DNA of 64,000 nucleotides, from the NCBI GenBank assembly GCA_017849615.1, contig JAFIGS010000006.1, positions 94,558-158,557 on the forward strand, read 5' to 3'. Positions 49,886-64,000 of this stretch are shown one piece after another. The position numbers were made by a program, and so were the translations under genes. Position 1 is the first letter of the stretch. Each line of letters starts with the position of its first letter. The notes beneath the pieces are model-generated. The model was given only the letters and a program-made list of their open reading frames with translations, searched no databases and was not told the DNA's origin. The stretch comes from Pseudolabrys sp. Its GTDB lineage: Bacteria; Pseudomonadota; Alphaproteobacteria; Rhizobiales; Xanthobacteraceae.

Positions 49886-50119
49886 CGTCACTCAACTGAA
49901 CGCGATTTGAAAAAACCGCAAGTCACTATGGTAAACGCCGCGGAAAGCATAAAGCGCAACCGTTCTTTAGGGATAACGGGGTGTCAGGGTTAGCGGGTAA
50001 TAACCGCTTAACCGACAAAGCGCGATAACTCGTCCACGAAATATTGTCCAAGTTTGGCAACCAAGCGCCAGCAGTGAAGCCGTTCCGCGTCTGCGGCGCG
50101 TGCGTGAGTGGAGAGTAAG

Positions 50120-50737
50120 ATGAAAAAGCAAATTCTGGCGATGACCGCGCTGGCGGCCGCAACCTTGGCCACCGCTGCATCGGCCGCCGATCTGCCGCGC
50201 AACAACTACTATTCGCAGCCCGCCCCGGGCTCCTATTACAACTGGGCGGGTTGGTACGCCGGCGCGATCGTCGGCTACGAGTGGGGCAAGGTCCCGGGCA
50301 CCAGCACCAAGCCCAGCGGCATCCTCGGCGGTCTGACCGGCGGCTACAACTGGCAGAGCGGCCAGTTCGTGCTCGGCGGCGAAACCGACCTGCAGATCTC
50401 GGGCGCCGACGACACCTTCGCGCCGTACAAGTTCTCGAACCCCTGGTTCGGCACCCTGCGTGGTCGCGCCGGCATGGCCTGGAACAACGTGCTCGTCTAC
50501 ATCACCGGTGGTATCGCCTATGGCGGCCTCAAGGGCGAAAGCGGCGCCCTCTCGGAAACCAAGACCCATATCGGCTGGACTCTCGGCACCGGCGTCGAGT
50601 TCGGCCTCGCCCAGCAGTGGTCCGCCAAGATCGAATATCTCTACGCCGACCTCAGCAACCGCACCTACTCGATCACGGGCGTCGGCAACGGCCTCGAGAC
50701 CAACATGATCCGCGTCGGCGTGAACTACCGCTTCTAG
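50120..50737 (+). CDS. Outer-membrane beta-barrel protein, first of three
   Basis: 205 residues; signal peptide MKKQILAMTALAAATLATAASA. Barrel strands include NWAGWYAGAIVGYEWG, GILGGLTGGYNWQSGQFVLGGETDLQISG, LRGRAGMAWNNVLVYITGGIAYGG and GWTLGTGVEFGLAQQWSAKIEYLYADL, ending MIRVGVNYRF with the terminal phenylalanine recognised by the BAM complex. Omp25/31 family. GGAGAG lies before the ATG, and a strong terminator follows at 50778. Confidence 0.9.
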   Translation: MKKQILAMTALAAATLATAASAADLPRNNYYSQPAPGSYYNWAGWYAGAIVGYEWGKVPGTSTKPSGILGGLTGGYNWQSGQFVLGGETDLQISGADDTFAPYKFSNPWFGTLRGRAGMAWNNVLVYITGGIAYGGLKGESGALSETKTHIGWTLGTGVEFGLAQQWSAKIEYLYADLSNRTYSITGVGNGLETNMIRVGVNYRF

Positions 50738-51071
50738 CCCATGCCCCCCGTGCGGCCGCTTCCGGGGCCGCACAGACAAAGCCCCGGATTGTAAAATCCG
50801 GGGCTTTGTGCTGTCGTAATAGTAGTCAGTCAGAGGACTGTAGTATATTATTAGAAAATATAGTATAGTTAAGCGTTGCTAAAATAAAAAAGGTGACACA
50901 TCGTCGTCAAAAATACGGCAAAATGACGAATTTTTGCTGTCTTAGCTGTGATCGTGTCCATTTCAACTTCGATTCAAGTGTTGCATATTTACACTAGACG
51001 AAGTTTCGAAAACGAATACTGTTTGCCTCAGATTTTGAGGGCGTTCAGCCCGTTTTCGGAGAGTTGAGACA
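50738..51071. other. AT-rich intergenic leader between two outer-membrane protein genes
   Basis: After the terminator at 50778-50807, about 230 bases (50815-51045) are strikingly AT-rich compared with flanking genes, with runs such as TAGTATATTATTAGAAAATA. No coding frame is evident. It presumably holds the promoter and a 5' leader for the gene at 51072, possibly strongly expressed or regulated by a nucleoid protein or sRNA. No individual -35/-10 stands out enough to name. Confidence 0.5.
50778..50810 (+). terminator. Terminator after the first beta-barrel gene
   Basis: AAAGCCCCGGATT (50778-50790) and AATCCGGGGCTTT (50795-50807) form a perfect 13-bp stem with loop GTAA, 40 bases after the stop codon. 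Confidence 0.85.
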
Positions 51072-51740
51072 ATGAAGCGTATCGTTATCGCCGCCGCTCT
51101 CGCGGTCGTTTCCATCAGCGTTGCCAACGCCGCCGACCTCGGCCGCCGTCCGGCCGCAATGCCGACCAAGGCGCCGGCCTATGTCACCCCGCTGTACAAT
51201 TGGACCGGTCTGTATGCCGGTCTCAACGGCGGCGGCGCCTGGGGCAATTCCTCGGTCTCCGGCCCGCTCTCGACCGGCGGCAACTTCCGCAACTCGGGCG
51301 GCTTCATCGGCGGCACGCTCGGCTACAACCATCAGATCAACCAGGCTGTGCTCGGTCTCGAAACCGACCTCGACTGGTCGAACATCAAGGGCTCGTCCGC
51401 CTGCGCCGTCGGCGTTTCCTGCGAAGTGAAGAACACCTGGCTCGGCACCCTGCGCGGCCGCGTCGGCTACGCCATGGGCGCCTCGGGCACCATTCTCCCG
51501 TACTTCACGGGCGGTCTGGCCTACGGCGGCGTAAAGACCTCGGCGGACGGCTTGGGCTCGACCAGCTCGACCAAGGCCGGCTGGACCCTGGGCGGCGGCG
51601 TCGAAGCCGCGATCTCCGGTCCGTGGACGGCCAAGATCGAATATCTCTACGTCGATCTCCAGAACACCGGTGCGCCGGCTGGATCGACCAGCCGCTTCCG
51701 CACCAACGAAGTGCGCGGCGGCATCAACTACCGCTTCTAA
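51072..51740 (+). CDS. Outer-membrane beta-barrel protein, second of three
   Basis: 222 residues with signal peptide MKRIVIAAALAVVSISVANAA. The mature protein opens DLGRRPAAMPTKAPAYVTPLYNWTGLYAGLNGGGAWG and contains GGFIGGTLGYNHQINQAVLGLETDLDWSN, LRGRVGYAMGASGTILPYFTGGLAYGG and GWTLGGGVEAAISGPWTAKIEYLYVDL, with terminal NYRF. Two cysteines (SACAVGVSCEV) may pair in an external loop. It has an AT-rich upstream leader and its own terminator. It is closely paralogous to the gene at 51954. Confidence 0.92.
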   Translation: MKRIVIAAALAVVSISVANAADLGRRPAAMPTKAPAYVTPLYNWTGLYAGLNGGGAWGNSSVSGPLSTGGNFRNSGGFIGGTLGYNHQINQAVLGLETDLDWSNIKGSSACAVGVSCEVKNTWLGTLRGRVGYAMGASGTILPYFTGGLAYGGVKTSADGLGSTSSTKAGWTLGGGVEAAISGPWTAKIEYLYVDLQNTGAPAGSTSRFRTNEVRGGINYRF

Positions 51741-51761
51741 GCGTCAAACAAGAAACGTCGG

Positions 51762-51793
51762 AAAACCCCGGACATTTGTCCGGGGTTTTTTTG
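51762..51793 (+). terminator. Terminator after the second beta-barrel gene
   Basis: AAACCCCGGA-type left arm and TCCGGGGTTT right arm around a short ATTTG-type loop, followed by a run of T (TTTTTTTG). It sits 22 bases after the stop codon. Confidence 0.85.
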
Positions 51794-51953
51794 TTGCCTG
51801 CGTGCAACACGCACCGTCGCTCAACATTACAAATGCAACTCGCCGCTGCGGAATGTGGAACGCTCGTTTGGATCGCGCGTTTTCTCGCCATCGGGGGACG
51901 GCGCGCTTGCGTCCGTCCGAATGAGTTCCATTCGAAGCGCGATGAGGTGCGTC

Positions 51954-52559
51954 ATGAAAAAGATTCTTCTCGCTACCGCGGGTCTTCTGTCGCTCGGCGT
52001 GATGTCGGCGCAGGCCGCCGACATGCAGCGTCGTATGCCGGTGAAGGCCCCGGAATACGTCGCTCCGGCGCCGGCTCTTTATAACTGGACCGGCCCGTAT
52101 GTCGGTCTGTCGGGCGGCGGTTCGTTCGGCTCGGGTTCCGATTCCGGCATCGTCGGCGGCACGCTCGGCTACAACATGCAGACCGGCCCGTGGGTGTTCG
52201 GTCTCGAAGGCGACATGAACTGGCTCAGCCACAGCAGCGCCGCCGTGCGCAACAACTGGCTCGCCACCGTTCGCGGCCGCGTCGGCTACGCCATGGGCGC
52301 CACCGGTGCGTGGATGCCGTATGTCACGGGCGGCGTCGCTTTCGGCGACGTCAGCAACGCGGTCAGCGGCGTCGGCATGGTCAGCGACAACAAGACCGGC
52401 TGGACCCTCGGCGGCGGCCTTGAGGCCGCGCTCTCCGGCCCGCTCACGGCCAAGGTCGAGTATCTGTACGTCAATCTCGGCAACGGCCCGACTCTCGCTG
52501 GCGTCGGCTCGAACTATCACACCAACATCATTCGCGCCGGCCTGAACTATCGCTTCTAA
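51954..52559 (+). CDS. Outer-membrane beta-barrel protein, third of three
   Basis: 201 residues; ATG 51954 gives signal peptide MKKILLATAGLLSLGVMSAQA. Mature part: ADMQRRMPVKAPEYVAPAPALYNWTGPYVGLSGGGSFG, GGTLGYNMQTGPWVFGLEGDMNWL, VRGRVGYAMGATGAWMPYVTGG and GWTLGGGLEAALSGPLTAKVEYLYVNL, terminal NYRF. Lacks the loop cysteines of its neighbour. It is the last identifiable core-genome gene before the integrated element. Confidence 0.92.
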   Translation: MKKILLATAGLLSLGVMSAQAADMQRRMPVKAPEYVAPAPALYNWTGPYVGLSGGGSFGSGSDSGIVGGTLGYNMQTGPWVFGLEGDMNWLSHSSAAVRNNWLATVRGRVGYAMGATGAWMPYVTGGVAFGDVSNAVSGVGMVSDNKTGWTLGGGLEAALSGPLTAKVEYLYVNLGNGPTLAGVGSNYHTNIIRAGLNYRF

Positions 52560-52588
52560 CCACAAAGACTGGCTGACTGAGCAAACTG

Positions 52589-52620
52589 AAACCCCGGCGC
52601 TTGGCGCCGGGGTTTTTTTA
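52589..52620 (+). terminator. Terminator after the third beta-barrel gene
   Basis: AACCCCGGCGC and GCGCCGGGGTT arms separated by TTG/TT, followed by TTTTTTATTT. It lies 30 bases after the stop codon and marks the last feature before the mobile island. Confidence 0.88.
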
Positions 52621-52796
52621 TTTCACCATGACTCCAGCACCGAAATTCGCTGGACTACGCTACAGCCCGATACAGCAGGTTTATCAATGACTTAAGCGAG
52701 TTCAACATATGCCGGTGCTTTCCGAAACCTGACCTGACTTCCGACCGCCTGACTCCTATCCGGCCCTTGGAATCCAGGTCTTTCCAAGGAGTCATC

Positions 52797-53996
52797 ATGG
52801 CTAAGATCAAACTCACTAAGTCCGCTGTCGATGCGGCGCAACCCCAGGCAGAGGCCGTCGAACTCCGGGACACGCTGGTCCCCGGCTTCCTGTGCAAGAT
52901 TACCCCGGCGGGTCGCAAGGTGTTCATGCTCCAGTACCGGACGAACGCTGGCGAGCGCCGCAAGCCCTCGCTAGGACTGTACGGGGAGCTGACCGTCGAA
53001 CAGGCGCGGTCGCTGGCGCAGGAATGGCTGGCCCAAGTCCGCCGAGGCGGAGATCCCGCCGCAGAGAAGGCGGAGGCGCGCCAGGCACCTACGGTCAAGG
53101 AGCTATGCACGAAGTTCATGGAGGACTACTCCAAGAAGCGCAACAAGCTCAGCACCCAAGCCGGCTATCAGGCTGTCATCAATCGCAACATTATTCCGCT
53201 GCTGGGACGCAAGAAAGTTCAGGACGTGAAGCGTCCTGAAATCGCCGGACTGATGGAAAAGCTTTCGTACAAGCAGACCGAGGCGAACAAGGTATTCAGC
53301 GTCTTGCGCAAGATGTTCAACATGGCCGAGGTATGGGGCTATCGGCCCGACGGTACCAACCCTTGCCGTCACGTCCCGATGTTCCCTGCCGGCAAATCGA
53401 CTCACCTCATCAGCGACGAAGAAATGGGCAACCTGTTCCGACAGCTCGACAAGATCGAGTCGGAGGGGCTGGAGAACTACGTCATCCCTTTGGGAATCCG
53501 CCTGCAGTTCGAGTTCGCCGGCCGCCGCTCGGAAATCATCGCGCTGGAATGGAACTGGGTTGACTTGCAGAACCGGCGCGTCGTCTGGCCTGACAGCAAG
53601 ACAGGCGGCATGTCTAAGCCCATGAGCGAGGAAGCCTATCGGCTACTCTCGACGGCACCCCGGCAGGAGGGTAGCCGCTATGTGCTGCCTTCTCCTAGCC
53701 ACGCTGGCAAGCATCTAACCACGGGCGAGTATTACGGTGGCTGGAGCCGTGCGCTCAAGGCGGCTGGCGCTACGCACGTGGGCACGCACGGCATCCGCCA
53801 CCGTTCGGCGACCGACATTGCCAATTCGGGCATCCCGGTCAAGGTCGGCATGGCGCTAACGGCGCACAAGACCGTCGTCATGTTCATGCGCTACGTCCAC
53901 ACCGAGGATAAGCCGGTGCGAGAGGCGGCCGAACTGGTGGCGAATCGGCGTAAGACGATCACCGGGATGCAGGGAGCCAAGGAGGTGGCCGCATGA
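52797..53996 (+). CDS. Tyrosine recombinase / integrase with DUF4102-type arm domain
   Basis: 399-residue site-specific recombinase of P4/phage type. Amino arm-binding region AKIKLTKSAVDAAQPQAEAVELRDTLVPGFLCKITPAGRKVFMLQYR is the DUF4102-like domain; a SAM-like core-binding domain follows (LCTKFMEDYSKKRNKLSTQAGYQAVINR). Catalytic residues: Arg in FAGRRSEIIALEW (about 240), His-x-x-Arg in GTHGIRHRSATDIANSG (about 332) and Tyr in MFMRYVHTEDK (about 366). No tRNA gene is adjacent, so the attachment site is uncertain; the left junction is probably within 52621-52796. It overlaps the next gene by four bases. Confidence 0.93.
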   Translation: MAKIKLTKSAVDAAQPQAEAVELRDTLVPGFLCKITPAGRKVFMLQYRTNAGERRKPSLGLYGELTVEQARSLAQEWLAQVRRGGDPAAEKAEARQAPTVKELCTKFMEDYSKKRNKLSTQAGYQAVINRNIIPLLGRKKVQDVKRPEIAGLMEKLSYKQTEANKVFSVLRKMFNMAEVWGYRPDGTNPCRHVPMFPAGKSTHLISDEEMGNLFRQLDKIESEGLENYVIPLGIRLQFEFAGRRSEIIALEWNWVDLQNRRVVWPDSKTGGMSKPMSEEAYRLLSTAPRQEGSRYVLPSPSHAGKHLTTGEYYGGWSRALKAAGATHVGTHGIRHRSATDIANSGIPVKVGMALTAHKTVVMFMRYVHTEDKPVREAAELVANRRKTITGMQGAKEVAA

Positions 53997-55060
53997 CCCG
54001 GCGCAAGGCATCCGTCTCAGCGCCAGCAGCGCCGCCCGCGCTGCTGGGCGACATCCGGGCACTGATCGAAGCGTCGCGCCAGCGCGTCGCCTCGGCGGTC
54101 AATGCCGAGCTGACATTGCTGTTCTGGCGCATTGGCCAGCGCATCCATACGGAAGTGCTTGCCGGGCAGCGGGCCGGGTACGGCGACGAAATCCTGCCGA
54201 CCCTGGCGGCGCAGCTTGTCCGCGACTACGGACGTAGCTTCGCGGACAAGAACCTGCGCCGGATGGTGCAGTTCGCCGCCACCTTCTCGGACGAGCCAAT
54301 TGTCGTGACGCTGTCACGACAATTGAGCTGGTCGCATTTCGTGGCGCTGCTGCCGCTAAAAGACCCGCTCCAGCGGGACTACTACGTGCAAATGGCCAGC
54401 GCCGAACGCTGGAGCGTGCGGACGCTACGCGAGCGCATCGACTCGATGCTATACGAGCGCACGGCGCTGTCCAAGAAGCCGGACGAGACGATCACGCAAG
54501 AGCTGGCGGCGATGCGCGATGCGCAGCGCATGTCGCCGGCGCTGGTCATGCGCGACCCGTACATCCTCGACTTCCTGGGCCTGCGCGATACCTGGCAGGA
54601 AGGCGACCTGGAAGCCGCGATCATCCGCGAAATGGAGTCTTTTTTGCTGGAGTTGGGCGCGGGCTTCTCTTTCCTAGCCCGGCAGAAACGCATCCAGATC
54701 GACGACGAGGATTTCCACCTGGACCTGCTGTTCTATAACCGCAAGCTGCGGCGGCTGGTGGCGGTGGAGTTGAAGATCGGCGAGTTCAAGGCAGCATACA
54801 AGGGGCAGATGGAGCTTTATTTGCGTTGGCTCGACAAGCACGAACGCGAACCGGAGGAAGCCTCGCCGCTGGGCATCATTCTTTGTACCGGCAAGAAGTC
54901 AGAGCAGATCGAGTTGCTGGAGCTGGACAAGTCGGGCATCCACGTAGCCGAATACCTGACGACCCTGCCGCCGCGTGCGGTGCTGGGGGAGCGGTTGCAG
55001 CAGGCGACCGAACGGGCGCGGTTGCAGATCGAGCAGCGGCAGCCTGGCGAGAAGTCCTGA
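53993..55060 (+). CDS. DUF1016/YhcG-type PD-(D/E)XK nuclease family protein
   Basis: 355 residues. The amino DUF1016_N region reads IRALIEASRQRVASAVNAELTLLFWRIGQRIHTEVLAGQRAGYGDEIL...LVRDYGRSFADKNLRRMVQFAATF. The carboxy nuclease domain has IQIDDEDFHLDLLFYNRKLRRLVAVELKIGEFKAAYKGQMELYLRWLD, i.e. a D...ExK core. Its ATG sits in the integrase stop (ATGA), so both are translated together: likely a passenger dependent on integrase expression. Relatives accompany restriction-modification and other defence loci; precise role unknown. Confidence 0.9.
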   Translation: MTRRKASVSAPAAPPALLGDIRALIEASRQRVASAVNAELTLLFWRIGQRIHTEVLAGQRAGYGDEILPTLAAQLVRDYGRSFADKNLRRMVQFAATFSDEPIVVTLSRQLSWSHFVALLPLKDPLQRDYYVQMASAERWSVRTLRERIDSMLYERTALSKKPDETITQELAAMRDAQRMSPALVMRDPYILDFLGLRDTWQEGDLEAAIIREMESFLLELGAGFSFLARQKRIQIDDEDFHLDLLFYNRKLRRLVAVELKIGEFKAAYKGQMELYLRWLDKHEREPEEASPLGIILCTGKKSEQIELLELDKSGIHVAEYLTTLPPRAVLGERLQQATERARLQIEQRQPGEKS

Positions 55061-55299
55061 CAGCAGCATCTGTCCAACCGTACACCCAAACCACAGCACG
55101 AGCATGTGGCAACGGATCTCTTGCTCTATCGAGGCTCCATGCTAGTGTGGAATCGCCATAGGCCGATAAGGAACTGGCCTGCGGCTCAAGGATGCGCTGG
55201 GGCTAGTGGGCGCGAGCGCCCAATCACATGATTATCGCGGGCAGCAGCGCCATGTTCTATGCCGATCGCTGTTTTAATTAAATATCTCAAACTATAAAG
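55061..55299. other. Gene-free junction between DUF1016 and the minus-strand block
   Basis: 239 bp. The first 190 bases are GC-rich, with no frame of note; the last 50 (TTTTAATTAAATATCTC) shift abruptly to AT-rich sequence belonging to the 415-aa gene. The two flanking genes are convergent. No clear terminator or RNA was found. Confidence 0.4.
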
Positions 55300-56547
55300 T
55301 CAGTTAATTTTTTCAAAATATTCACGAATCAAGTCATCATTTTTTAAATACGAATCGAGAACCTGAAACAGAAAAAGATCCCCGCTAATATTTATATCAA
55401 ACGGGATCATTGAGTTATCTATTTTGAATGTCTTTATTTTTCTATGCCCCTTGATGTTGGCATTGCTCAATCTTTCTTGATAGCTATCCAACGTATATAC
55501 GATAAATTCGTGATCCAAGTGAGTTATAAAAAAATCATCGCCTTTTGAACTGTATTCAAGATGGATGACTTGCGTTACGACGTCGTCGCCTGCCACCTCA
55601 AAGTCCTCCATCAATTCTTCAAAAGTCAAACTTAGCTTCTCTGCGTCATGGTGAATCCATAGATTGTTCTCATATTTATCGGTGGAGTAGAACTTTGACA
55701 ATCTAGGAAGGGAAGATATTTTCAATCGCAACGGAGCGCCAAACTCCATCTCCTCCATTGCAGGGACATAATCGGAGACGTAATCAATCCTGAATGCTAT
55801 TTCGGACAGCATTCCTTTTTCAATGAGTTCCTCGATAGAGGTAAGCAGCTTCCTCGGAACTTTTATCCAGAAGTGTCGCCCTATGCGTTCATCGCGTATT
55901 GTCTGACTATCCTTGTCGTTGAATATCTGAATATTCTCGTTCAGGCTGACAAGACTATATTTAGAGAACTGAGCATCTTCCTTTCTTATGTCAATTCCAA
56001 TTTTCTCGTACTCACGTTCAACTACCTTGGAATATTTTAGCTCCAGCATCTCAGCCCTCCCCATGATTGATTGGTGCTTGGAATAAAAAATGCAGCCAAT
56101 GCGATAATTTGCGTAATTTTCTTTTATGTACGAAACACCATCTTCGTCATGGATATGCTTGTAGGAATTGTTGAGAATTTCTAGCGATCCCGGATACTCG
56201 TTGAGATAATTATTTAAGTAGTCCATTAAATGCTGGATTGTCTTTATAGCCAATCGCTTGTCCACTAGATCAAGCTGTGGCCCATAAAACTTGGCTGCGT
56301 TTGGATGGTCGCGTTTGGCTTCAAATTCTTTCAGAATGGCCGCCTTTTCATTCATGCAGCCCTCCGTATAAGCACGCATTACGTCTGCCTGAAAGCTCTC
56401 ATTTGCCAGAGAGGTTTGGATGAGGGGAAGCAATTTCTTGACAAAGATCGGGTCTTTATTAAGAAAGACGTAGCAAAATTTCCCAAAGCTGAATAACGCG
56501 ATTTTTTCCGAAGAAAATTCATTGATTTCTTCAAAGATATTTTTCAT
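55300..56547 (-). CDS. Unknown AT-rich 415-aa protein in the defence island
   Basis: 415-residue soluble protein, no signal peptide or membrane helix. It starts MKNIFEEINEFSSEKIALFS and carries stretches such as QHLMDYLNNYLNEYPGSLEIL, MLELKYSKVVEREYEKIGID, RKLLTSIEELIEKGMLSEI and FKIDNSMIPFDINISGDLFL. I recognise no domain, nucleotide-binding loop or nuclease motif. Base composition is far lower in GC than the rest of the window, implying separate acquisition. It is the last gene of the minus-strand block, 288 bp after the UvrD-like gene, so it may be an extra component of that system or an independent one. Confidence 0.8.
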   Translation of the reverse strand: MKNIFEEINEFSSEKIALFSFGKFCYVFLNKDPIFVKKLLPLIQTSLANESFQADVMRAYTEGCMNEKAAILKEFEAKRDHPNAAKFYGPQLDLVDKRLAIKTIQHLMDYLNNYLNEYPGSLEILNNSYKHIHDEDGVSYIKENYANYRIGCIFYSKHQSIMGRAEMLELKYSKVVEREYEKIGIDIRKEDAQFSKYSLVSLNENIQIFNDKDSQTIRDERIGRHFWIKVPRKLLTSIEELIEKGMLSEIAFRIDYVSDYVPAMEEMEFGAPLRLKISSLPRLSKFYSTDKYENNLWIHHDAEKLSLTFEELMEDFEVAGDDVVTQVIHLEYSSKGDDFFITHLDHEFIVYTLDSYQERLSNANIKGHRKIKTFKIDNSMIPFDINISGDLFLFQVLDSYLKNDDLIREYFEKIN

Positions 56548-56835
56548 ATTTTTTACTCAACTCGCCGTAGTCCAAATAGTAAGCGACGGAACCTTGAGCG
56601 TCTCCACTTTGTGGATCGCGCTGCTCCACGTTCGCTATTCGCTCATCCCTGACGGGACTGGCATTCGCCAGCCCTCCACGGCCCGACACTGTGATCCGGG
56701 CCTGCGCGCTCCGCTTGCATGTTGAGCTGGCGACAGCAGGGCATGCAGAGCGAGCCGCGCGCAGATGATTCAGCCAAACGCTAAACAAAGCTGTAGGGCA
56801 TCCCATAGAGAGCGCGGTTGCGCTACTCGTGATTT
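56548..56835. other. 288-bp GC-rich spacer between the UvrD-like and the unknown gene
   Basis: GC-rich, unlike the AT-rich gene to its left. It holds a small hairpin GGGACTGGC-ATTC-GCCAGCCC (56654-56674). Frames crossing it show no family. It resembles plasmid or ICE intergenic sequence and probably marks a recombination seam between two cargo modules. No promoter for the 415-aa gene could be named confidently. Confidence 0.4.
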
Positions 56836-58635
56836 CTATGGAATTTGATCGTATCCAAAACTGCATGAGGCAAGCTTGCGAGTTACTTGATACTCTTCGC
56901 CAGAATACTGGCGAACTCGACCTCGTTCCGAAACAAGGTGCAGGTTCTTCCTTGCCCGCGAACCAATGACATACAGCAATTTCATCGCGCTTTCTTGACC
57001 GTTCGGATCATTGAAATGCGGCACCATATCTTCTAATAATGCATAAGCGATCACTGCATCGAACTCGGCTCCCTTGACGCCGTGTATCGTCGAGATGGTG
57101 ATTCCAGTCCTATGCTGAAATACCTTCCTGAATGTCTCAATATCGCCTATAAATTCGCTACCTTCACTCTTCAATCGATTTACCCGGGCTTGCGAACTAT
57201 CGAAGAAGGCAACGTGATGCTCTTGAAGCAGCGTGAAAAGGCGAAAGTCGATTGCTAAGTTTGCAAACAGACGCTCGAAAAATGCGCTCAAGTAGGTAAG
57301 ACCATCTGTTTCATCGATCTTAATTGCATTGCACTCCCTCAACAAGGACCTCCGCGTGAGCTTCGACACGCTAGCCCCGGCCGCCTCTAGGTCATTCAGA
57401 ATCTCCCCGGCCCACCGCAGTCTGCGCACATACATTCCCGGCGATGCCTGAGTAAGTGCAATCTTAGAAAGCCTGTACCAGAAATTCTCTGTGTCCCGTG
57501 CAAAGGGAACCATACCGGGGCCATCGAATGAGTACTCCGGCATGCTGGCGACCAAACGACGTGTCATGCTTGCAAGATGCGTCCACTGTGGCGCGAGAAT
57601 GCACACCTCGTGAGGTGAGATGCCCATAGTCTCAATGTTGAAACGGATGAGCCGGATGAGCTCAGCGTCCAGATCATTTTTGCTCACTGTGTCGTCGAAT
57701 GAAATAAGGCTTGGGTACGCCTTGTCCTCGGATGCGGCTTCGATGCGTGTGTTGTGAACGTTGTAGTTTCCGAAGTACTCAATGATGCGCTCAGAAGAAC
57801 GGTAGTTCCGCGACAGTTCGAGTTCGTCCAAATCGATATTGGCCATCGCCTTGAAATCCTCGAAGGCAATCGGATATCCGCCAAGCGATTGATAAATCGC
57901 CTGGTTAGGATCTCCGACAATAAAGGCCTTGGTCGCACCTTGACCAGCTTTCAGAATGGCGGTGATGATCGAATACTGAATTCGTTTGGTGTCCTGATAC
58001 TCGTCGATCAGCACGAAAGAGAACAACTGTGCCAGAAGAGTGCTGATCGCAGGATGACGTGCGATCAGTTGGTACGCATAGTAAAGAATGAGCTCAAAGT
58101 CTAGCTGCCGACTTTCGTGCAGAATCTCAAAATACTTGCCCAATATGACGTGAAGACCCGAATGCTTCCAATCTTGTGGGCAGGAGAGCACATATCCAGT
58201 TTCGGTGTAATAAAACTCACAATCCCAGAATGTTATTTTTGGCTTCTGGTAAGGCTTGCACAATGCCTCCAGGATTTTCTCGCGCTCATGCTGATCGATC
58301 ACACGGAAGCCTCGATCCAACGCTTCGTGATAGATGCCGTACGGTTTCAATATCCATTCAAGACAGAACGAATGTATCGTTCCTATCCATAATCGGGATG
58401 TATCCACCCCAAGGCTCTCAATGCGCTCGTGGATTTCGTCGGCGGCACGGTGCGTATAAGTGATGGCAACGACAAACTGCTTGTTCGATTTCAGCCTGGA
58501 CAACTCATAGGCGATTTTGTAGGTGAGCGTGCGCGTTTTCCCGCTGCCCGGGCAAGCGATGAGAAAGACGCTCCCTGGCTTCAGAATGGCTGCTTCCTGC
58601 TCGGGATTCAGATCATCTTTGTTCCACATGAACAT
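56836..58635 (-). CDS. UvrD/Rep-like superfamily I DNA helicase (GajB-like)
   Basis: 599 residues with all SF1A helicase motifs: Q motif LNPEQEAAIL, Walker A FLIACPGSGKTRTLTYK, Ia VVAITYTHRAADEI, II FVLIDEYQDTKR, III AFIVGDPNQAIYQSLG, IV LSRNYRSSERI, V GITISTIHGVKGAEFDAV and a motif-VI-like AMKLLYVIGSRARKNLHLV. It starts two bases after the OLD-family gene, so the two are coupled. This OLD+UvrD arrangement is that of Gabija (GajA/GajB), where the helicase-like partner activates or is controlled by the nuclease. Alternative start ATG 58629. Confidence 0.92.
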   Translation of the reverse strand: MFMWNKDDLNPEQEAAILKPGSVFLIACPGSGKTRTLTYKIAYELSRLKSNKQFVVAITYTHRAADEIHERIESLGVDTSRLWIGTIHSFCLEWILKPYGIYHEALDRGFRVIDQHEREKILEALCKPYQKPKITFWDCEFYYTETGYVLSCPQDWKHSGLHVILGKYFEILHESRQLDFELILYYAYQLIARHPAISTLLAQLFSFVLIDEYQDTKRIQYSIITAILKAGQGATKAFIVGDPNQAIYQSLGGYPIAFEDFKAMANIDLDELELSRNYRSSERIIEYFGNYNVHNTRIEAASEDKAYPSLISFDDTVSKNDLDAELIRLIRFNIETMGISPHEVCILAPQWTHLASMTRRLVASMPEYSFDGPGMVPFARDTENFWYRLSKIALTQASPGMYVRRLRWAGEILNDLEAAGASVSKLTRRSLLRECNAIKIDETDGLTYLSAFFERLFANLAIDFRLFTLLQEHHVAFFDSSQARVNRLKSEGSEFIGDIETFRKVFQHRTGITISTIHGVKGAEFDAVIAYALLEDMVPHFNDPNGQESAMKLLYVIGSRARKNLHLVSERGRVRQYSGEEYQVTRKLASCSFGYDQIP

Positions 58636-58637
58636 GA

Positions 58638-60776
58638 TCAGAACACCGCGAGTACATCGTTGATGCGATCATCTGGGAACGTGGCAAGCATCTCGTTTCG
58701 GATGCCGACGAAGTCGATGTCTCCATTTCGGAAGGCCAGCAGCTTGGCCCTAAAGTCGTCGAATACGGCAGACGCAGTGAAGATATCTTCTGCATCGATG
58801 TAGTTCACGCGGTAGCTCAGCACGTTAAACCAGACTTCCTTAGTGACCACCGGATGCGCAAAAGCGATGGCGTCCAAGATGTACTTCGGAATGGCGGTCT
58901 GCGGATCGATCTTCTTTCCCAGCAAGATGGCAAACCATCCCTTGCCGTAGTTGTCCGCCATGGTCAATGCGCGCTGACCGAACAACGCGATGTCCGCTGA
59001 TTCGAGCTCCGCCTTGGCCGTCGCGATGGTTGGTGCATCCTTGTAGACATCAGGAAGGATGCCGACCACCTTACGCGCATTGCCGGCGGCAATGAAGTCG
59101 ACCTCGAAGGTATGGGGGGCAAAGAATGGAGAAACCCACCCGTTATCTTTGAAGGTGTCTTCCAATAACGCTTTCCTGGCGACCCCTTTTTCCTGGGATG
59201 CCTGATACTTGCCCTTGCGCCGGAGCAGCCCTTCGGAGTCTCCCGCCGCCGGCGTTGTGTCAATGATGGACTTGTCAAGGTCGGTGACGATGCTGCACCG
59301 CTTCCGGATTCGGGCATCATCGAAAAGAACCGCGACGTTCTGAAATCCAGTGCTGCGGATATTAATTAAACTGATGCCGAGTTCATCAAGGCTGACGCCT
59401 AGCACGTTCTTGATCAGGATCGGAACGAGAATTTCTTCTGCATCGCCCTCCACTAAGAGGACGCTCTTGGCAAACAACAAGTTGCTACGGACAGCATCCA
59501 GGTAGCGTTGAATGTTGCCGATCTCTTCTGGGTTTAGGCCAATTGCAGGCTGGTATGCCTCGCAACGATCACCTTCTCTGCCGAGGATGTTCACGTTCTG
59601 AACATTGCTGACCTCAGAGATGTGCGTCGAATGGGTCGAATAAATGATCTGTGTGTCGTCGTATTTGAGCTTGTCGAACAGTGTTTTCTGGATATGTGTG
59701 TGAATGTGAGCTTCCGGCTCTTCGATAAGCAGAAAGTTGGCGATCGACTGTTTAGCCTTTTGATACTTGAATTCAAGCAGTTTCAACGTGAGGAATATCA
59801 GGTTTGCTCCACCAAGGCTCAGCTCGTGGATCGGTCCTTCGTGGCTCTCCCCCGATTCGCCAACGAACAGCTTGAGCGACTGGAACAACTTGTCAGCTTC
59901 GTCTGGCAGATCCGACTTGATAGAAAGAGAAGACGGCGAATACGCCTCACCCGCCGCATCCTTGATGGTGTCTCTGATATCCGTCCGGACGACCTGCACG
60001 TCTGGCAACGCTTCGATGGAGTCATTCAATGCCTTTACCCCGTCGGTGATAGCCTGGAACGCCACGGGGTCGATATCGCCGCTCTTGCCCTTCAGAAGCG
60101 AAAAGAGCGGATTTGTCCGGTTGTTGTGAAATTCGGAGACGACGTCCCGTAGCGCCTGGACGAAAGTGAACGAAATTTCTTTGGAGACGGACAGCACGTT
60201 CGGAATCTTCGCGCCGATAACACGAAATTCAACCTCTTCATTGAATCGAACATTCGCGAAGTCGCCGACCACATCCTTATAGAAGGCCTCGTCGTTGAAG
60301 TCGGCTTCACTCCGACCTGTGAAAATCGTTTCATAGTCGTCGATGGTGACCGGGTTCAGGATAGCGTCGAGGCCTGCCTGATCACCATCGTTCAATTGAG
60401 AAAGTCGCAGCCTGATTTCCTTCTTCGGACGAAAGATCAGGTTGTAAGTGGCCTTGCCGTTCGCCTCTTCCTCAATTACGCCCGTCCCATGTCGGAAGAG
60501 CGCCTGCACTGATTCATCCGCAGAGATTTCCTCAAACTCAAGACTGATGATGATCCAATGTCCCTGCCAGCGCCCTAGGCCGCGATGAAAGTCGGTATGC
60601 TCCAGCCGGTAGGCAGAGCGAATCATGTTGTCATCAAGCAGCAATCTGATTGCGCGAAAGAGATTGGTTTTGCCAGATCCATTTTCGCCGATGACAGTGT
60701 TGATACCCTTCTGGAACAGCAGCTTCGTGTTGGGAAAGTTCCGGTAGTTGACCAGGCTGAGCTTGGATATATGCAT
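58638..60776 (-). CDS. OLD-family ATPase with TOPRIM nuclease domain (GajA-like)
   Basis: 712 residues. ABC-type ATPase split by a coiled insert: MHISKLSLVNYRNF...INTVIGENGSGKTNLFRAI (Walker A, residues 30-37), signature HELSLGGANLIFLTLKLLEF and Walker B FLLIEEPEAHIH, switch YSTHSTHISEV. The TOPRIM nuclease follows from about residue 440: SVLLVEGDAEEILVPIL (metal-binding Glu) and IVTDLDKSIID (DxD). Adjacent to a UvrD helicase, it is a class 2 OLD protein. It is longer than the GajA I remember (about 580 residues), with an extra carboxy part. ATG 60776 matches family starts; ATG 60806 is possible. Confidence 0.92.
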   Translation of the reverse strand: MHISKLSLVNYRNFPNTKLLFQKGINTVIGENGSGKTNLFRAIRLLLDDNMIRSAYRLEHTDFHRGLGRWQGHWIIISLEFEEISADESVQALFRHGTGVIEEEANGKATYNLIFRPKKEIRLRLSQLNDGDQAGLDAILNPVTIDDYETIFTGRSEADFNDEAFYKDVVGDFANVRFNEEVEFRVIGAKIPNVLSVSKEISFTFVQALRDVVSEFHNNRTNPLFSLLKGKSGDIDPVAFQAITDGVKALNDSIEALPDVQVVRTDIRDTIKDAAGEAYSPSSLSIKSDLPDEADKLFQSLKLFVGESGESHEGPIHELSLGGANLIFLTLKLLEFKYQKAKQSIANFLLIEEPEAHIHTHIQKTLFDKLKYDDTQIIYSTHSTHISEVSNVQNVNILGREGDRCEAYQPAIGLNPEEIGNIQRYLDAVRSNLLFAKSVLLVEGDAEEILVPILIKNVLGVSLDELGISLINIRSTGFQNVAVLFDDARIRKRCSIVTDLDKSIIDTTPAAGDSEGLLRRKGKYQASQEKGVARKALLEDTFKDNGWVSPFFAPHTFEVDFIAAGNARKVVGILPDVYKDAPTIATAKAELESADIALFGQRALTMADNYGKGWFAILLGKKIDPQTAIPKYILDAIAFAHPVVTKEVWFNVLSYRVNYIDAEDIFTASAVFDDFRAKLLAFRNGDIDFVGIRNEMLATFPDDRINDVLAVF

Positions 60777-60881
60777 TTGATTCAATCTTGTTGTTGAAAT
60801 CCACATGCCGATCGGCCGATGGATTGGTTGAACACTGCAGCCATTGATCCCAACTACGGAATGGCCAACTGTCAGTTGGTT

Positions 60882-62291
60882 TTAGAACGGCACCGTGTCT
60901 AAGGTAGGAATCGGTTGGAGCGCATTTTTAATCTCGGTTAGCCTTGCAAGTAGTTCATCGAAAGTCACGATCACGATCTCTGCGAACGCATTTCGAACGA
61001 GCTCGAATGACTTTCTTTGCTGATGCTCTTGTGGCGTCATGCCAGCGACAACTATGCAGCGAACCGCATAGCTGTGGAGGTCGTATCGGTTCATGTTATT
61101 TTTTATGACGGGTAGTTCACTCTGCAATTTGAAACGCTGATCTAGAATTTGAGCAATCGCTCCACCCAATTCTGTCGATGGGCCAAAAACATCATCTCCA
61201 CGATAGGGAGATTTTCCTAGCAGTTCGGTTTGCGGCTTTTTTATCTCAATGAGGCCAAGATTGCCCGTGGAAGCGGATGCGTATAGAAAATCTGAAAATT
61301 TTCCGCCGGACCCGTTAAGTCGCTTGCCACCTGCATAAGCTTGCCCCTGAACCAGCATGGCTGGAACGGCAAATGCAAGACTAAGTATGAAAGGATTTTC
61401 CAGAAAGAAGCTTTGCCACTTGCTTTCCGTCAGTCCTTTTCCAAGCATTTCCTGGTATCGCTCAATCAGTTGATTCAGTGTGATGAGCTCAATATCATTC
61501 TTTAATGCCAGCAGCGAGCGCGGCTCAGATTCCGCCAGTGCTTCTATATTGTCTTGAACCATGCGAACAGCGGCGCGCCGATCACGCTTGGAAAGCGTCA
61601 CATGCTGCCGCCCACCATCGGTCATTTCCGTTAGTGCATCAGGTCTTACGCTCTTCTTTAGAGCGGGAAATTGTGCTGAATCGGCAGCATGTAATAAGGT
61701 CTGGTAGACATGAAATTGCTTGTCCTTGCGCGCGTCTCTCTGGTGGCGAGAGGCTATGCGATTTAATTCTTTTCTTAATTCATGAAATCTTCTTATTCCG
61801 AGAATAAAGAATGGCGAATCAATTTTCGCGTCATTTCCTTTGTGGACAATGAGTATGCTTACGTTTTCTAAGCTGGCGGCTGTTTCGCAAATTTGCCGAT
61901 ATTCCCACAGAAGCCCCAAACCGAATCGAAAATCTTTGGCAAACCCATCCGGCAACTGCTCAAGAAGCCCAACGACATCGTCAGTAGTCTCTGGCAGTAT
62001 GTAGGGCTCGATAACAGGCCGAGCGACGACGATGCGTTCAAGGGTGCCGTATTTAGGTTGCAGGTAATCGTCGCGATCTTCTCGAATATTAAGAGGCCAA
62101 ATGGTCAATCTGTCTGGACACACATTGAGCAGTCTCGCTATTGGCGAATCCGGCTTGCGCTCCGCTGCGGGAATATCAGTGAAGAAAACGTTAATGCCTT
62201 CCTCTTCCGGTTCGGCTGCTTCAATGACAAGGAAGGGGCCGCCGTCCAAACGCTCACGTTGATTGAATGCTGAAGGTCTGATAGATGCCAT
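60882..62291 (-). CDS. Shedu-type anti-phage nuclease (SduA, DUF4263)
   Basis: 469 residues. The carboxy half has the Shedu core: LTESKWQSFFLENPFILSLAF, GGKRLNGSGGKFSDFLYASASTGNLGLIEIKKPQTELLGKSPYRG and ELGGAIAQILDQRFKLQSELP, i.e. a PD-(D/E)XK nuclease with catalytic Asp in FSDFLY and the E-x-K in IEIKKP. The amino half (to about residue 270) is a variable sensor region of unknown fold: FRFGLGLLWEYRQICETAASLENVSILI... Shedu is a single-gene defence system. It reads toward the OLD gene with a 105-bp gap, so co-transcription is possible. Confidence 0.9.
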   Translation of the reverse strand: MASIRPSAFNQRERLDGGPFLVIEAAEPEEEGINVFFTDIPAAERKPDSPIARLLNVCPDRLTIWPLNIREDRDDYLQPKYGTLERIVVARPVIEPYILPETTDDVVGLLEQLPDGFAKDFRFGLGLLWEYRQICETAASLENVSILIVHKGNDAKIDSPFFILGIRRFHELRKELNRIASRHQRDARKDKQFHVYQTLLHAADSAQFPALKKSVRPDALTEMTDGGRQHVTLSKRDRRAAVRMVQDNIEALAESEPRSLLALKNDIELITLNQLIERYQEMLGKGLTESKWQSFFLENPFILSLAFAVPAMLVQGQAYAGGKRLNGSGGKFSDFLYASASTGNLGLIEIKKPQTELLGKSPYRGDDVFGPSTELGGAIAQILDQRFKLQSELPVIKNNMNRYDLHSYAVRCIVVAGMTPQEHQQRKSFELVRNAFAEIVIVTFDELLARLTEIKNALQPIPTLDTVPF

Positions 62292-62352
62292 GAACTATTC
62301 TTGATCCCTACTGTTCAGAGAAACGATTTGCGGGCCTTGCCTCAGCGCAACC

Positions 62353-62544
62353 TTATGGTGCCTTCCGATCAGAATCGGACGACACACGATTGATGTCAAA
62401 GGGGAGTGCCTTATCTGCCGCGATTCGGGTCAGCAGCATCCGAATCGCATCCGAAATTGATAACCCCATTTCAGCCAGAACAACAGTTGCGGCTTCTTTA
62501 ATCTGCCCGTCAATCCGGGCACGAACGACGTCGTTACTTGCCAT
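62353..62544 (-). CDS. RelB/DinJ-family antitoxin without a visible toxin
   Basis: 63 residues: MASNDVVRARIDGQIKEAATVVLAEMGLSISDAIRMLL, a ribbon-helix-helix DNA-binding start as in RelB/DinJ antitoxins, then ADKALPFDINRVSSD. An upstream in-frame start at 62583 would add a short tail. The toxin normally follows the antitoxin; only 61 bp separate this gene from the Shedu gene and no RelE/YafQ-like frame fits there, so it looks orphaned. It may still repress transcription of the downstream Shedu gene. An imperfect palindrome upstream (62554-62577) may be its operator. Confidence 0.75.
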   Translation of the reverse strand: MASNDVVRARIDGQIKEAATVVLAEMGLSISDAIRMLLTRIAADKALPFDINRVSSDSDRKAP

Positions 62545-62553
62545 TGTTGCGCT

Positions 62554-62577
62554 CACAATAGATGTAGCTACATTGTG
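62554..62577 (-). promoter_or_regulatory. Possible antitoxin operator
   Basis: CACAATAGATGTAG followed by CTACATTGTG: an imperfect inverted repeat just before the antitoxin start, as expected for autoregulation by a ribbon-helix-helix protein. Low confidence, based on symmetry alone. Confidence 0.35.
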
Positions 62578-63223
62578 GCTCATAAGTACTATTGCGTCAC
62601 TTACATTTTGTTGTGAACAGTAGAGCATCCCGGCGTGCCGCCGTCGGGCTCGCGGGCGTTGCCCCGCGCCTCGTGCCGAGTCGCGGCCATGCGGCTTTGA
62701 TCCCTGATGCCTCCGGCCGTCTCTTCGCTCCTGGCCTGCGCGCGGCGCTTGCCCTCCAGGGGATCGGCTGGACAGCCCATCCCCGCCGCGCCTTGCTTGG
62801 CGCCCCTCGCATGCACCGAACAGGTTGCACCTGATCGACCAACAGCCATCCAGCTAGGCGTGCCGCTGGCACGCAGGGGCGCTCGCCGCGCGGCGTTGGT
62901 TTCAGCGCACCCCCTGGCCCATTGGCCGCTGTTCGTCTTTCCCCAAGTTCATCGCTTTTTCCCGCGACCGTAGCCCGCGGTGCCTGGCCGTCAAGGCGCG
63001 CAGGGCCGAGTCCTCGCTGCGCTGCGGGCCGCACCAACCCTGCGCTTCTCCCTTGACGGCCAGTCCCTCGCTGGCCCGGTTTTTCGCGGGCGATGAACTC
63101 AGGAAAGACGGCGGCAAACAGGACCGGCCCAGGTCTCTGCGCCGAACCAACCGAAGCCACAACGGGCTCCGAATCTTGGAATCCGGTCAGCTTTGAAACC
63201 ACAGCAACTCATTGGAGAAAACC
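62578..63223. other. Gene-free 646-bp stretch with long inverted repeats
   Basis: GC-rich and apparently non-coding. TGGCCGTCAAGG (62985-62996) and CCTTGACGGCCA (63051-63062) are perfect 12-bp arms 54 bases apart, with further complementary GCAGGG/CCCTGC next to them. The last 40 bases hold the ribosome-binding site of the DUF932 gene. The region resembles leaders of plasmid or ICE genes and might contain an RNA, a replication or transfer site, or a regulatory leader. None can be named from the sequence. Confidence 0.45.
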
Positions 63224-64000
63224 ATGCAACTCGCATCTCGATTCGCTTCCCATTCCCCGACGCTGCGCAGTGACTACCCGCTGTCCGACGACCAAATCCG
63301 CCGCGTAGCCCCGTCCATCTTCGCGGAGGCCCCGCACGATAGCCGCTCCGAACGGTACGCCTACATTCCCACCGCCGCCGTGCTGGCGGAACTGCGCAAG
63401 GAAGGGTTTGAACCCTTCATGGCAGCGCAAACCCGCGTGCGGCACGACGACCGCCGCGACTACACCAAACACATGATTCGCCTGCGCCATGCCAGTCAGA
63501 TCAACGGCGCGGAAGCCAATGAAATCGTGCTGCTGAACTCGCACGACGGCACCAGCAGCTATCAGATGCTGGCCGGAATGTTCCGGTTCGTTTGCAGCAA
63601 TGGCCTTGTGTGCGGCGATACCGTGGCCGATGTGCGCGTGCCGCACAAGGGCGACGTGGCCGGTTCTGTCATCGAAGGCGCTTTCGAGGTGTTGAGCGGC
63701 TTCGAACGCGTGAAGGAATCCCGCGACCTGATGCGCGCTATCACGCTGGACGAAGGCGAAGCCGAAGTGTTCGCCCGTTCCGCGCTGGCCCTCAAGTACG
63801 ACCCCACCGATAACAAGCCCGCGCCCATCACGGAAAGCCGAATCCTGATGCCTATCCGGTTCGACGACCGCCGCCCGGACTTGTGGAGCGTGTTCAACCG
63901 CACCCAAGAAAACCTGACCCAAGGCGGGCTGCGTGGCCGCAGCGCCAACGGGCGCCGACAGCAAACCCGCCCGGTGCAGGGCATCGACCAAAACATCCGA
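63224..64000 (+). CDS. DUF932 plasmid/ICE protein, 3' end outside the window
   Basis: The first 259 residues are visible, starting MQLASRFASHSPTLRSDYPL. Diagnostic DUF932 (phage/plasmid-like TIGR03299-related) stretches include FEPFMAAQTRVRHDDRRDYTKHMIRLRHA, EIVLLNSHDGTSSYQMLAGMFRFVCSNGLVCG and FNRTQENLTQGGLRGRSANGRR. TTGGAGAAAACC precedes the ATG. Such genes are typical of conjugative plasmids and integrative conjugative elements, so the island continues to the right. Function unestablished. Confidence 0.9.
   Translation, partial: MQLASRFASHSPTLRSDYPLSDDQIRRVAPSIFAEAPHDSRSERYAYIPTAAVLAELRKEGFEPFMAAQTRVRHDDRRDYTKHMIRLRHASQINGAEANEIVLLNSHDGTSSYQMLAGMFRFVCSNGLVCGDTVADVRVPHKGDVAGSVIEGAFEVLSGFERVKESRDLMRAITLDEGEAEVFARSALALKYDPTDNKPAPITESRILMPIRFDDRRPDLWSVFNRTQENLTQGGLRGRSANGRRQQTRPVQGIDQNIR

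Follow-up and report, generated by a model that had tools for sequence, protein, structure and literature searches.

Shedu and Gabija genes in the cargo of a Tn4371-family ICE and the recurrence of this pairing among Shedu loci

Gene content of the cargo block and its carrier element

The window analysed here, a stretch of 64,000 nucleotides from Pseudolabrys sp., contains towards its end the left part of a Tn4371-family ICE (Table 1). An earlier note had named an integrase, a DUF1016 nuclease, a 415-aa protein, a UvrD-like helicase, an OLD-type ATPase, Shedu and a DUF932 gene; all these open reading frames were found at the claimed places, and curated models scored above cut-off for all except the 415-aa protein. 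The integrase, called a site-specific integrase in identical plasmid copies, has its annotated start at about 52797 in identical copies and its gene overlaps the DUF1016 gene by 4 bases. The relB-like gene, sduA, gajA and gajB share a single direction; the first of these, absent from the earlier note's list, is located 61 nt upstream of sduA and has no recognised toxin adjoining.

Table 1. Features at the left end of the ICE, in window coordinates (bits, model scores; PDLC, PADLOC models).
Feature	Position	Strand	Evidence or remark
Host intrinsic terminator hairpin	52588..52616	+	13-pair hairpin and T-tract; ICE inserted in T-run
Left attachment site, Tn4371-family ICE	52614..52621	+	TTTTTTAT; within T-run of host terminator
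Tyrosine integrase, Tn4371-family ICE	52767..53996	+	PF00589 68.6 bits (cut-off 27.1), PF13356, PF14659
DUF1016/YhcG PD-(D/E)XK nuclease-like gene	53993..55060	+	PF06250 158 bits, PF17761; PDLC04807 439 bits
415-aa protein gene	55300..56547	-	mobile-element family; no curated model above cut-off
gajB, UvrD-like helicase	56836..58635	-	PF00580 163 bits; PDLC00127 881 bits
gajA, OLD-type ATPase and TOPRIM	58638..60806	-	PF13175 107 bits, PF20469; PDLC00072 1055 bits
sduA (Shedu, SduA_C/DUF4263 nuclease, long N-terminal part)	60882..62291	-	PF14082 88 bits; PDLC00384 603 bits
RelB/DinJ-family antitoxin-like gene	62353..62628	-	PF04221 60 bits, TIGR02384 above cut-off
GC-rich repeated ICE sequence	62624..62755	-	similar sequence upstream of gajA in relatives
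DUF932 gene, ICE backbone, 5' part	63212..63839	+	PF06067 178 bits

The OLD and UvrD genes are predicted to be an ordinary, complete Gabija pair. GajA combines an ABC-type ATPase domain with a TOPRIM domain and matches solved GajA chains in sequence; because relatives and the annotated identical copies begin at 60776, its start is probably there, giving 712 aa. GajB covers positions 1-593 of the 594 in its PADLOC profile, contains the motifs ACPGSGKT (P-loop) and LIDEYQD and was aligned to PcrA. The two genes are separated by 2 nt, and a gajB match adjoins gajA in 57 of 58 GajA loci, the exception (L057) ending at a contig end. SduA is intact by its PADLOC model; D334, E349 and K351 are invariant in 11 of 11 aligned SduA proteins and the C-terminal part aligns to the Shedu structures 8ti8 and 8ti9, and residues 1-249 gave no sequence match to solved Shedu proteins. 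At L006, L011 and L014, which possess Gabija without Shedu, the GC-rich repeat is found 117-135 nt upstream of gajA, and because it directly precedes gajA there, the Shedu gene was probably inserted between the repeat and gajA. When the window was scanned, no Rfam match was found near this repeat.

The claim that Shedu and Gabija reside on a conjugative element was borne out by the curated-model gene identities and by the Tn4371-family backbone, and the defence block is the variable cargo bay of this ICE, between the integrase module and DUF932. As expected for acquired cargo, G+C drops from about 0.62 ahead of the block to 0.45-0.53 within it. From comparison with other copies, the ICE matches the window from 52610-52614 onward, and positions 52614-63839 showed zero base differences from the copies in Paracidovorax, Pseudochrobactrum, Shewanella and Citrobacter; one conjugative element has placed identical defence cargo in alpha-, beta- and gammaproteobacteria, including plasmids of clinical bacteria. 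The core order int ... ParB ... RepA, ParA, TraF, relaxase, TraR, TraG, trb is present in the identical copy on pC50_001, where a second Tn4371-type ICE is located inside the first, and the pSx1 copy has the same order with most trb genes absent. In the window's own genome the backbone was checked as far as the efflux genes. Because a different contig of this genome continues the ICE with 100% identity, the final 161 bases (63840-64000) are doubtful and resemble a chimeric contig end.

The sequence TTTTTTAT at the left attachment site is one of the end repeats given for Tn4371 elements in PMC2789088, and a Tn4371-type 8-bp TTTTTYRT repeat was present at the left end (the end considered) in 15/15 junctions. 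The host hairpin is absent from the ICE copies in other hosts. As a side observation, left ends of Tn4371-family ICEs lay within the T-run of an intrinsic terminator in 12 of 15 cases under the final hairpin rule, which allows longer loops, compared with 30/583 background sites and with 6/41 background sites of local G+C >0.58. Under the first rule the counts were 10/15 junctions and 42/583 background sites; the rule was loosened after the data had been seen, two sites plainly having longer loops, and both sets were re-run. The junctions missing a terminator under the final rule are L005, L062 and L096.

Gabija pairs in the neighborhood of Shedu genes

A Gabija pair was located within 3 kb at 7 of 20 Shedu loci (L079, L081, L098, L111, L130, L132, L182) and at none of 40 HsdR loci (Fisher p = 2e-4). 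This control is imperfectly matched: most of the Shedu loci are from plasmids, and the HsdR loci were taken from genome assemblies, where contig ends truncate some of them. The order of Shedu followed by OLD-UvrD, which had been offered as a possible compound operon, is to this extent a recurring arrangement. Without L098, which resembles Gabija only weakly (174 and 76 bits), the count is 6/20 (p = 8e-4). Shedu loci from the viral collection had a Gabija pair in 0/13 cases (9 long-type loci and 4 that have just the C-terminal part; flanks were short in several), and their inclusion gives 7/33 (p = 0.003). Among cellular loci with C-terminal-type Shedu (L099-L105, L113, L114), a GajA and GajB pair within 5 kb was found in 0/9, with a lone GajA-like ORF in L105 and a GajA-like fragment about 8 kb off in L102. 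Seen from the Gabija side, just 1 of the 52 GajA relatives outside the clone has a Shedu gene close by, which indicates that Gabija can do without Shedu.

The 20 loci were chosen by Shedu similarity. Shedu matches below 60% identity occurred in 73 plasmid records, and 19 of these were examined. Dropped before the count of 20 were L134 (lineage of L130, pair present), L135 (as L133) and L183 (as L084), the latter two without the pair, and also the nine cellular loci with C-terminal-type Shedu; L036, found via GajA, is outside the 20, and L118 (split frame) was omitted from the Shedu tree. L080, with a weak GajB-like ORF (52 bits, no PADLOC model match at 1e-30), and L180, with a UvrD-like gene without GajA, were not counted as paired. 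The HsdR control comprised 40 of 65 listed places in 27 genomes, nearly all best-scoring (G030:C65 was inadvertently replaced by a lower-scoring place), with several loci from one genome and some short ones (6-11 kb); one control locus, L139, has a weak GajA-like ORF (31 bits) without GajB.

The paired Gabija span the model groups PDLC00072, 90, 98/102, 99 and 100 and a weak 86-like one, and along the Shedu tree the Gabija label changes at least 6 times, the changes being gains or losses; the Shedu proteins of L132 and L182 are closely related. Same-strand sduA-gajA-gajB is found in about four lineages (the ICE of the window, L036, L098 and L130/L134). The pair is convergent in L079, L081 and L182 and 2.4-2.9 kb distant in L111 and L132, so that a shared transcript cannot be the general rule. 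A census of neighbors, in which 116 of 124 ORFs near the first 17 Shedu loci were scanned, showed the AAA/OLD-type ATPase and UvrD families to be the commonest, and at 1e-70 the models for GajA and GajB were the only ones, among the 25 of 63 PADLOC models listed, that matched more than one of the 116 ORFs.

The DUF1016 gene and the 415-aa protein

The comparison of gene order in other genomes, suggested by the earlier note, upheld the Shedu/Gabija pairing and restricted the full four-gene set to the clone (6/58 GajA loci). A DUF1016 gene follows a Tn4371-type integrase also in L006, L096 and L110, not in L014, and is predicted to travel with the ICE integrase, outside the Shedu/Gabija set. The 415-aa protein is Gabija-adjacent, among the 58 GajA loci, in only the six clonal copies and L011, where the relative is 88% identical and on the other side of Gabija. 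The suggested membership of both genes in one unit with Shedu and Gabija was accordingly not supported.

For the 415-aa protein, Pfam, NCBIfam and PADLOC gave nothing above cut-off (one chance-level Pfam match, E 0.055), PHROGs and solved structures gave a single match each (E 0.032 and 0.12), and phages gave none; the AlphaFold model, with a mean pLDDT of 44.5, is too poor for use. An alignment of relatives shows that the motifs H.DHE and K.K.FKIDN..IP, both within the C-terminal half, are conserved. The protein query matched 1 of 398 genomes, the window's own, and the alignment query 0 of 369, which shows little as it was run without a positive control. Viral contigs contain three distinct relatives, the clone being one, and plasmids account for 84 records, 48 of these at ≥99%. 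Matches were obtained in 102 of 5426 E. coli genomes, 2 being full-length and plasmid-borne and 100 short and chromosomal, with about 67% DNA identity; two of three E. coli loci examined adjoin mobQ and the third lies in a decayed copy. The relative in L089 adjoins an ATPase that matches nSTAND/NACHT weakly and that in L090 lies behind umuDC-like genes (named by eye), surroundings that hint at phage-borne cargo. Relatives without Gabija occur in the examined Vibrio, Providencia, E. coli and prophage-like loci, and in some plasmids that list Shedu and Gabija genes an insertion sequence splits the 415-aa gene. The distribution suggests that the 415-aa protein is separate cargo, drifting among plasmids, ICEs and prophages.

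A proposed function of the pairing and comparison with known systems

According to passages of PMC12904381 and PMC12407980, Gabija and Shedu are anti-phage systems that each act alone; Shedu senses DNA ends and Gabija blocks end joining. As both would act at the ends of phage DNA, we propose that Shedu cleaves ends which Gabija has kept open. The DNA injected by tailed phages is linear, and Gabija might act at ends free of RecBCD, where it would block end joining and circularisation, so that the phage DNA would remain linear and offer ends for Shedu to sense and cut. Each system alone would be protective, and together they might counter more phages or protect more strongly. Co-transcription of sduA with gajAB, and cooperation of Shedu with Gabija, are what we infer. 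That Shedu of this type has repeatedly been joined to various Gabija subtypes, indicating selection for the combination and end-directed teamwork on ICE cargo, seems to us a proposition that could fall either way. The narrower formulation, a recurrently assembled compound locus in which Gabija keeps ends unjoined, Shedu cuts them and phages escaping either one alone are blocked, is tentative and, in our judgement, more doubtful than probable.

Independent Shedu and Gabija systems might simply share a cargo bay with no functional link, since mobile elements gather defence genes, and we consider this explanation a serious one, if somewhat short of an even prospect. It agrees with the description of each system as acting alone, with the absence of pairing from the viral Shedu loci, with orientation and spacing that differ between loci, and with other Shedu neighbors such as type I restriction (L083), PDC-M54A (L085), Dsr1 (L084) and AbiEii (L180). 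However, clustering alone is at odds with the excess of Gabija at Shedu over HsdR loci and with the census, in which GajA and GajB stood out. A four-gene machine of Shedu, GajA, GajB and the 415-aa protein, perhaps with DUF1016, could be imagined from the contiguity of the genes on one strand and from the 415-aa relative near GajAB in L011, but the confinement of the set to the clone, the 415-aa relatives without Gabija, the disrupted 415-aa genes and the DUF1016 gene that tracks the integrase make it highly improbable. As a candidate, the four-gene compound system was rejected: neither the 415-aa protein nor DUF1016 follows the Shedu/Gabija pair. It is also unlikely that the block chiefly guards the ICE against rival plasmids or ICEs and less against phages: the carrier is a conjugative element whose plasmid also harbours another ICE of the Tn4371 type, but in pC50_001 this other ICE lies within the first and so was not excluded by it, and passages of the two papers describe both systems as anti-phage. 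If the proposed pairing of Shedu with Gabija is functional, it would offer a ready test of why some defence systems travel together, and two systems directed at one phage structure, the DNA end, would have been joined repeatedly from different parts.

With regard to known systems, the DUF1016 gene resembles the PADLOC candidate PDC-S02 by its score to PDLC04807 and differs in having the integrase as its neighbor across ICE relatives. The element shares with the Tn4371-family ICEs described in the available sections of PMC2789088 the integrase, the attachment site type, ParB/RepA/ParA, the TraF-like peptidase, relaxase, LysR/TraR, TraG and trb genes, and cargo after int that includes helicases and nucleases, whereas those sections mention neither named defence systems nor insertion into terminator T-runs. 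Like other Gabija, the pair consists of adjacent genes for an OLD-type ATPase/TOPRIM protein and a UvrD helicase with intact motifs and near full-length PADLOC matches, but GajA is larger here than the solved chains (575-675 aa, tags included) and a Shedu gene precedes the pair. The Shedu protein has the C-terminal DUF4263 nuclease with the conserved D/E/K residues of the known family and differs in its N-terminal residues 1-249, unmatched in solved Shedu proteins, the N-terminal domain being the part to which end sensing is ascribed in Shedu. Gabija often adjoins Shedu of the type seen here.

Genes of the block

Model searches recognized an integrase, a DUF1016/YhcG nuclease-like protein, a UvrD-like helicase, an OLD-like ATPase/TOPRIM protein, the Shedu protein SduA and a DUF932 protein, and assigned no family to the 415-aa protein; the open reading frames named in the earlier note are present in the window where it had placed them. 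The top PADLOC matches were PDLC00072 for GajA (1055 bits), PDLC00127 for GajB (881 bits), PDLC00384 for SduA (603 bits) and PDC-S02 for the DUF1016 protein (439 bits), and because the best matches of the OLD/UvrD pair are GajA and GajB models, its reading as Gabija is confirmed. The P-loops and the DEYQD box are intact in the block, as are D334, E349 and K351 of SduA, which are invariant across 11 aligned Shedu proteins. By sequence, GajA and SduA each find solved structures from their own family, and GajB matches PcrA/UvrD best and GajB second. A RelB/DinJ-type antitoxin gene, possibly a regulator, lies 61 nt upstream of sduA, with no recognized toxin beside it.

Coordinates of features in the window and in compared records (L-numbers denote DNA loci from other records)
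Feature	Record	Coordinates
Three similar ORFs in a row	window	50108-52559
Left-end junction with terminator	window	52588-52621
Left-end junctions with terminator	L001, L002, L003, L006, L014, L016, L063, L075, L107, L109, L110	
Left-end junctions without terminator hairpin	L005, L062, L096	
ICE stretch compared between hosts	window	52614-63839
RelB/DinJ-type antitoxin gene (minus strand)	window	62353-62628
GC-rich repeat	window	62624-62755
GC-rich repeat	L062	30883-31000
Last 161 bases of the contig	window	63840-64000
Shedu, AAA-domain and further proteins	L133	10379-15633
Relative of the 415-aa protein with ATPase	L089	1-3269
Nested ICE of pC50_001	NZ_CP042479.1 (in L087 and L096)	82578-128788

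Shedu loci with a neighboring Gabija pair

Cellular loci of the same long type were chosen solely by similarity to SduA, three near-duplicates being dropped, and a Gabija pair was found within 3 kb in 3 of 10 loci of a first set, from which the idea of the pairing came (L079-L086, L097, L098), in 3 of 7 of a second (L111, L112, L129-L133) and in 1 of 3 of a third (L180-L182), that is, in 7/20. PADLOC Gabija models confirmed six of the seven pairs with best scores of at least 455 bits per protein, the support in L098 being weak (174 and 76 bits). For a control, the same profiles were run over the whole stretch around 40 of the 65 HsdR_N places located in 66 genomes of the phylum, and none of the 40 had a Gabija pair (Fisher p = 2e-4, or 8e-4 without L098), the control loci coming from genome assemblies, with some stretches cut by contig ends, and the Shedu loci mostly from plasmids. 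No pair was seen at 13 Shedu loci of a viral collection (nine being long-type loci and several having short flanks), and their inclusion gives 7/33 (p = 0.003). A census of 116 ORFs neighboring the first 17 loci put AAA/OLD-type ATPase families (up to 8) and UvrD helicase (6) at the top, and beyond the ATPase and helicase groups no family exceeded two occurrences among the 25 of 107 families listed. A different Shedu neighborhood occurs on Rhizobium and Agrobacterium plasmids (L133, L135), where AAA-domain proteins and proteins without a known family come after Shedu.

On a tree of 30 Shedu proteins, the distribution of Gabija requires a minimum of six changes on well-supported branches (six also with 27 rows), which could be gains or losses. 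As the paired Gabijas fall in different Gabija groups, gains are favored, and the sequences speak for Gabija having joined Shedu several times; L132 and L182 carry Shedu proteins that are closely related. The same-strand order sduA-gajA-gajB occurs in the window's ICE, L036, L098 and L130/L134, the sduA-gajA spacing being 105 nt in this ICE, measured to the likely start of gajA, and 67 nt in L130; the pair is convergent in L079, L081 and L182 and lies 2.4-2.9 kb away in L111 and L132. On that strand of the window's sduA-gajA gap, a weak scan (9 promoter-like sites against 7.1 expected in the region) listed no promoter-like or terminator-like site.

The consulted part of PMC12904381 describes Shedu as sensing DNA ends and cutting near them, and that of PMC12407980 describes Gabija as preventing end joining and circularization of linear phage DNA when RecBCD is absent from the ends. 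Gabija would thus leave phage DNA ends open and Shedu would cut them, a natural combination in which cooperation and more-than-additive protection are putative. No earlier account of the pairing and no paper joining Tn4371 with Gabija was found in a partial literature check, and novelty is not claimed.

Extent and probable assembly of the block

The earlier note had considered several independent or cooperating systems, with Shedu and OLD-UvrD perhaps a compound operon. Among 58 GajA loci, a gajB match adjoins gajA in 57, the exception being cut by a contig end, and Shedu is present in the six clonal copies of the ICE and near one of the 52 others (L036). The 415-aa protein lies beside Gabija in the clonal copies and in L011, there on its opposite side, and since its examined relatives occur without Gabija on Vibrio and Providencia plasmids, in an E. 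coli ICE-like region and on two prophage-like contigs, it is regarded as separate cargo. DUF1016 follows the Tn4371-type integrase in L006, L096, L110 and the clone, not in L014, and from this recurrent order it is assigned to the integrase. These distributions speak against both proteins as members of one unit with Shedu and Gabija; of the suspected compound unit, the recurring Shedu-Gabija association is supported. The prophage-like contig of L089 ends with a relative of the 415-aa protein, at 71% identity, tail to tail with an ATPase having a weak nSTAND/NACHT match.

Upstream of the relB-sduA part lies a GC-rich repeat roughly 130 bases long, and similar sequence is found 117-135 nt upstream of gajA in L006, L011 and L014, all without Shedu, L006 and L014 carrying a Tn4371-type integrase. 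Because the repeat adjoins gajA in these loci, the simplest reading of the sequences is that Gabija came first and relB-sduA entered later, between it and the repeat. The repeat is also found within the ICE backbone and at the junctions of cargo in relatives, and it may serve cargo as a recombination point or be a structured RNA.

Spread, target and scaffold of the carrier ICE

The compared ICE stretch shows no differences from copies in Paracidovorax (L001), Pseudochrobactrum (L005), Shewanella (L062) and Citrobacter (L063), one from Pseudomonas (L003) and two from Lysobacteraceae (L002); since these differences are near zero across alpha-, beta- and gammaproteobacterial hosts (NCBI taxonomy), the spread is recent. 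At least 80% of a 12-kb query was found in 47 of 153 matching records of the plasmid collection. The window's contig stops at base 64000, and the further course of the ICE lies in another contig of this genome, C4 (15786 bases at 100% identity); as the last 161 bases differ from all six copies compared, they look like a chimeric contig end.

Of 15 distinct left-end junctions of the ICE and its near relatives, 12 lie within an intrinsic terminator's T-run, under a hairpin rule adjusted once; at background TTTTTYRT cores a hairpin was found at 30/583 sites, or 6/41 in GC-rich surroundings. The attachment sequence is given in PMC2789088, in whose consulted text the word "terminator" is absent; PMC11448139 uses it once, on another matter, and no paper among those searched had both Tn4371 and transcription terminator. 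Targets of this kind should be frequent, and insertion there would spare genes, which would help an ICE to cross classes. The three similar ORFs directly upstream of the insertion appear outer-membrane-like by eye.

The plasmid copies carry integrase, DUF1016, cargo, DUF932, ParB, DUF736, DUF2958, DUF2285, RepA, ParA, DUF2840, S26 peptidase, relaxase, an RND efflux pump, a LysR regulator, TraG and trb genes, most of the latter missing from the pSx1 copy. In pC50_001 a second Tn4371-type ICE is nested within the first and has an integrase, DUF1016, RadC and AAA ATPase of its own. Repeated joining of Shedu and Gabija is the one pattern worth testing; the parts themselves are ordinary and the ICE is of a known kind, its gene set agreeing with the Tn4371 scaffold in the consulted part of PMC2789088.
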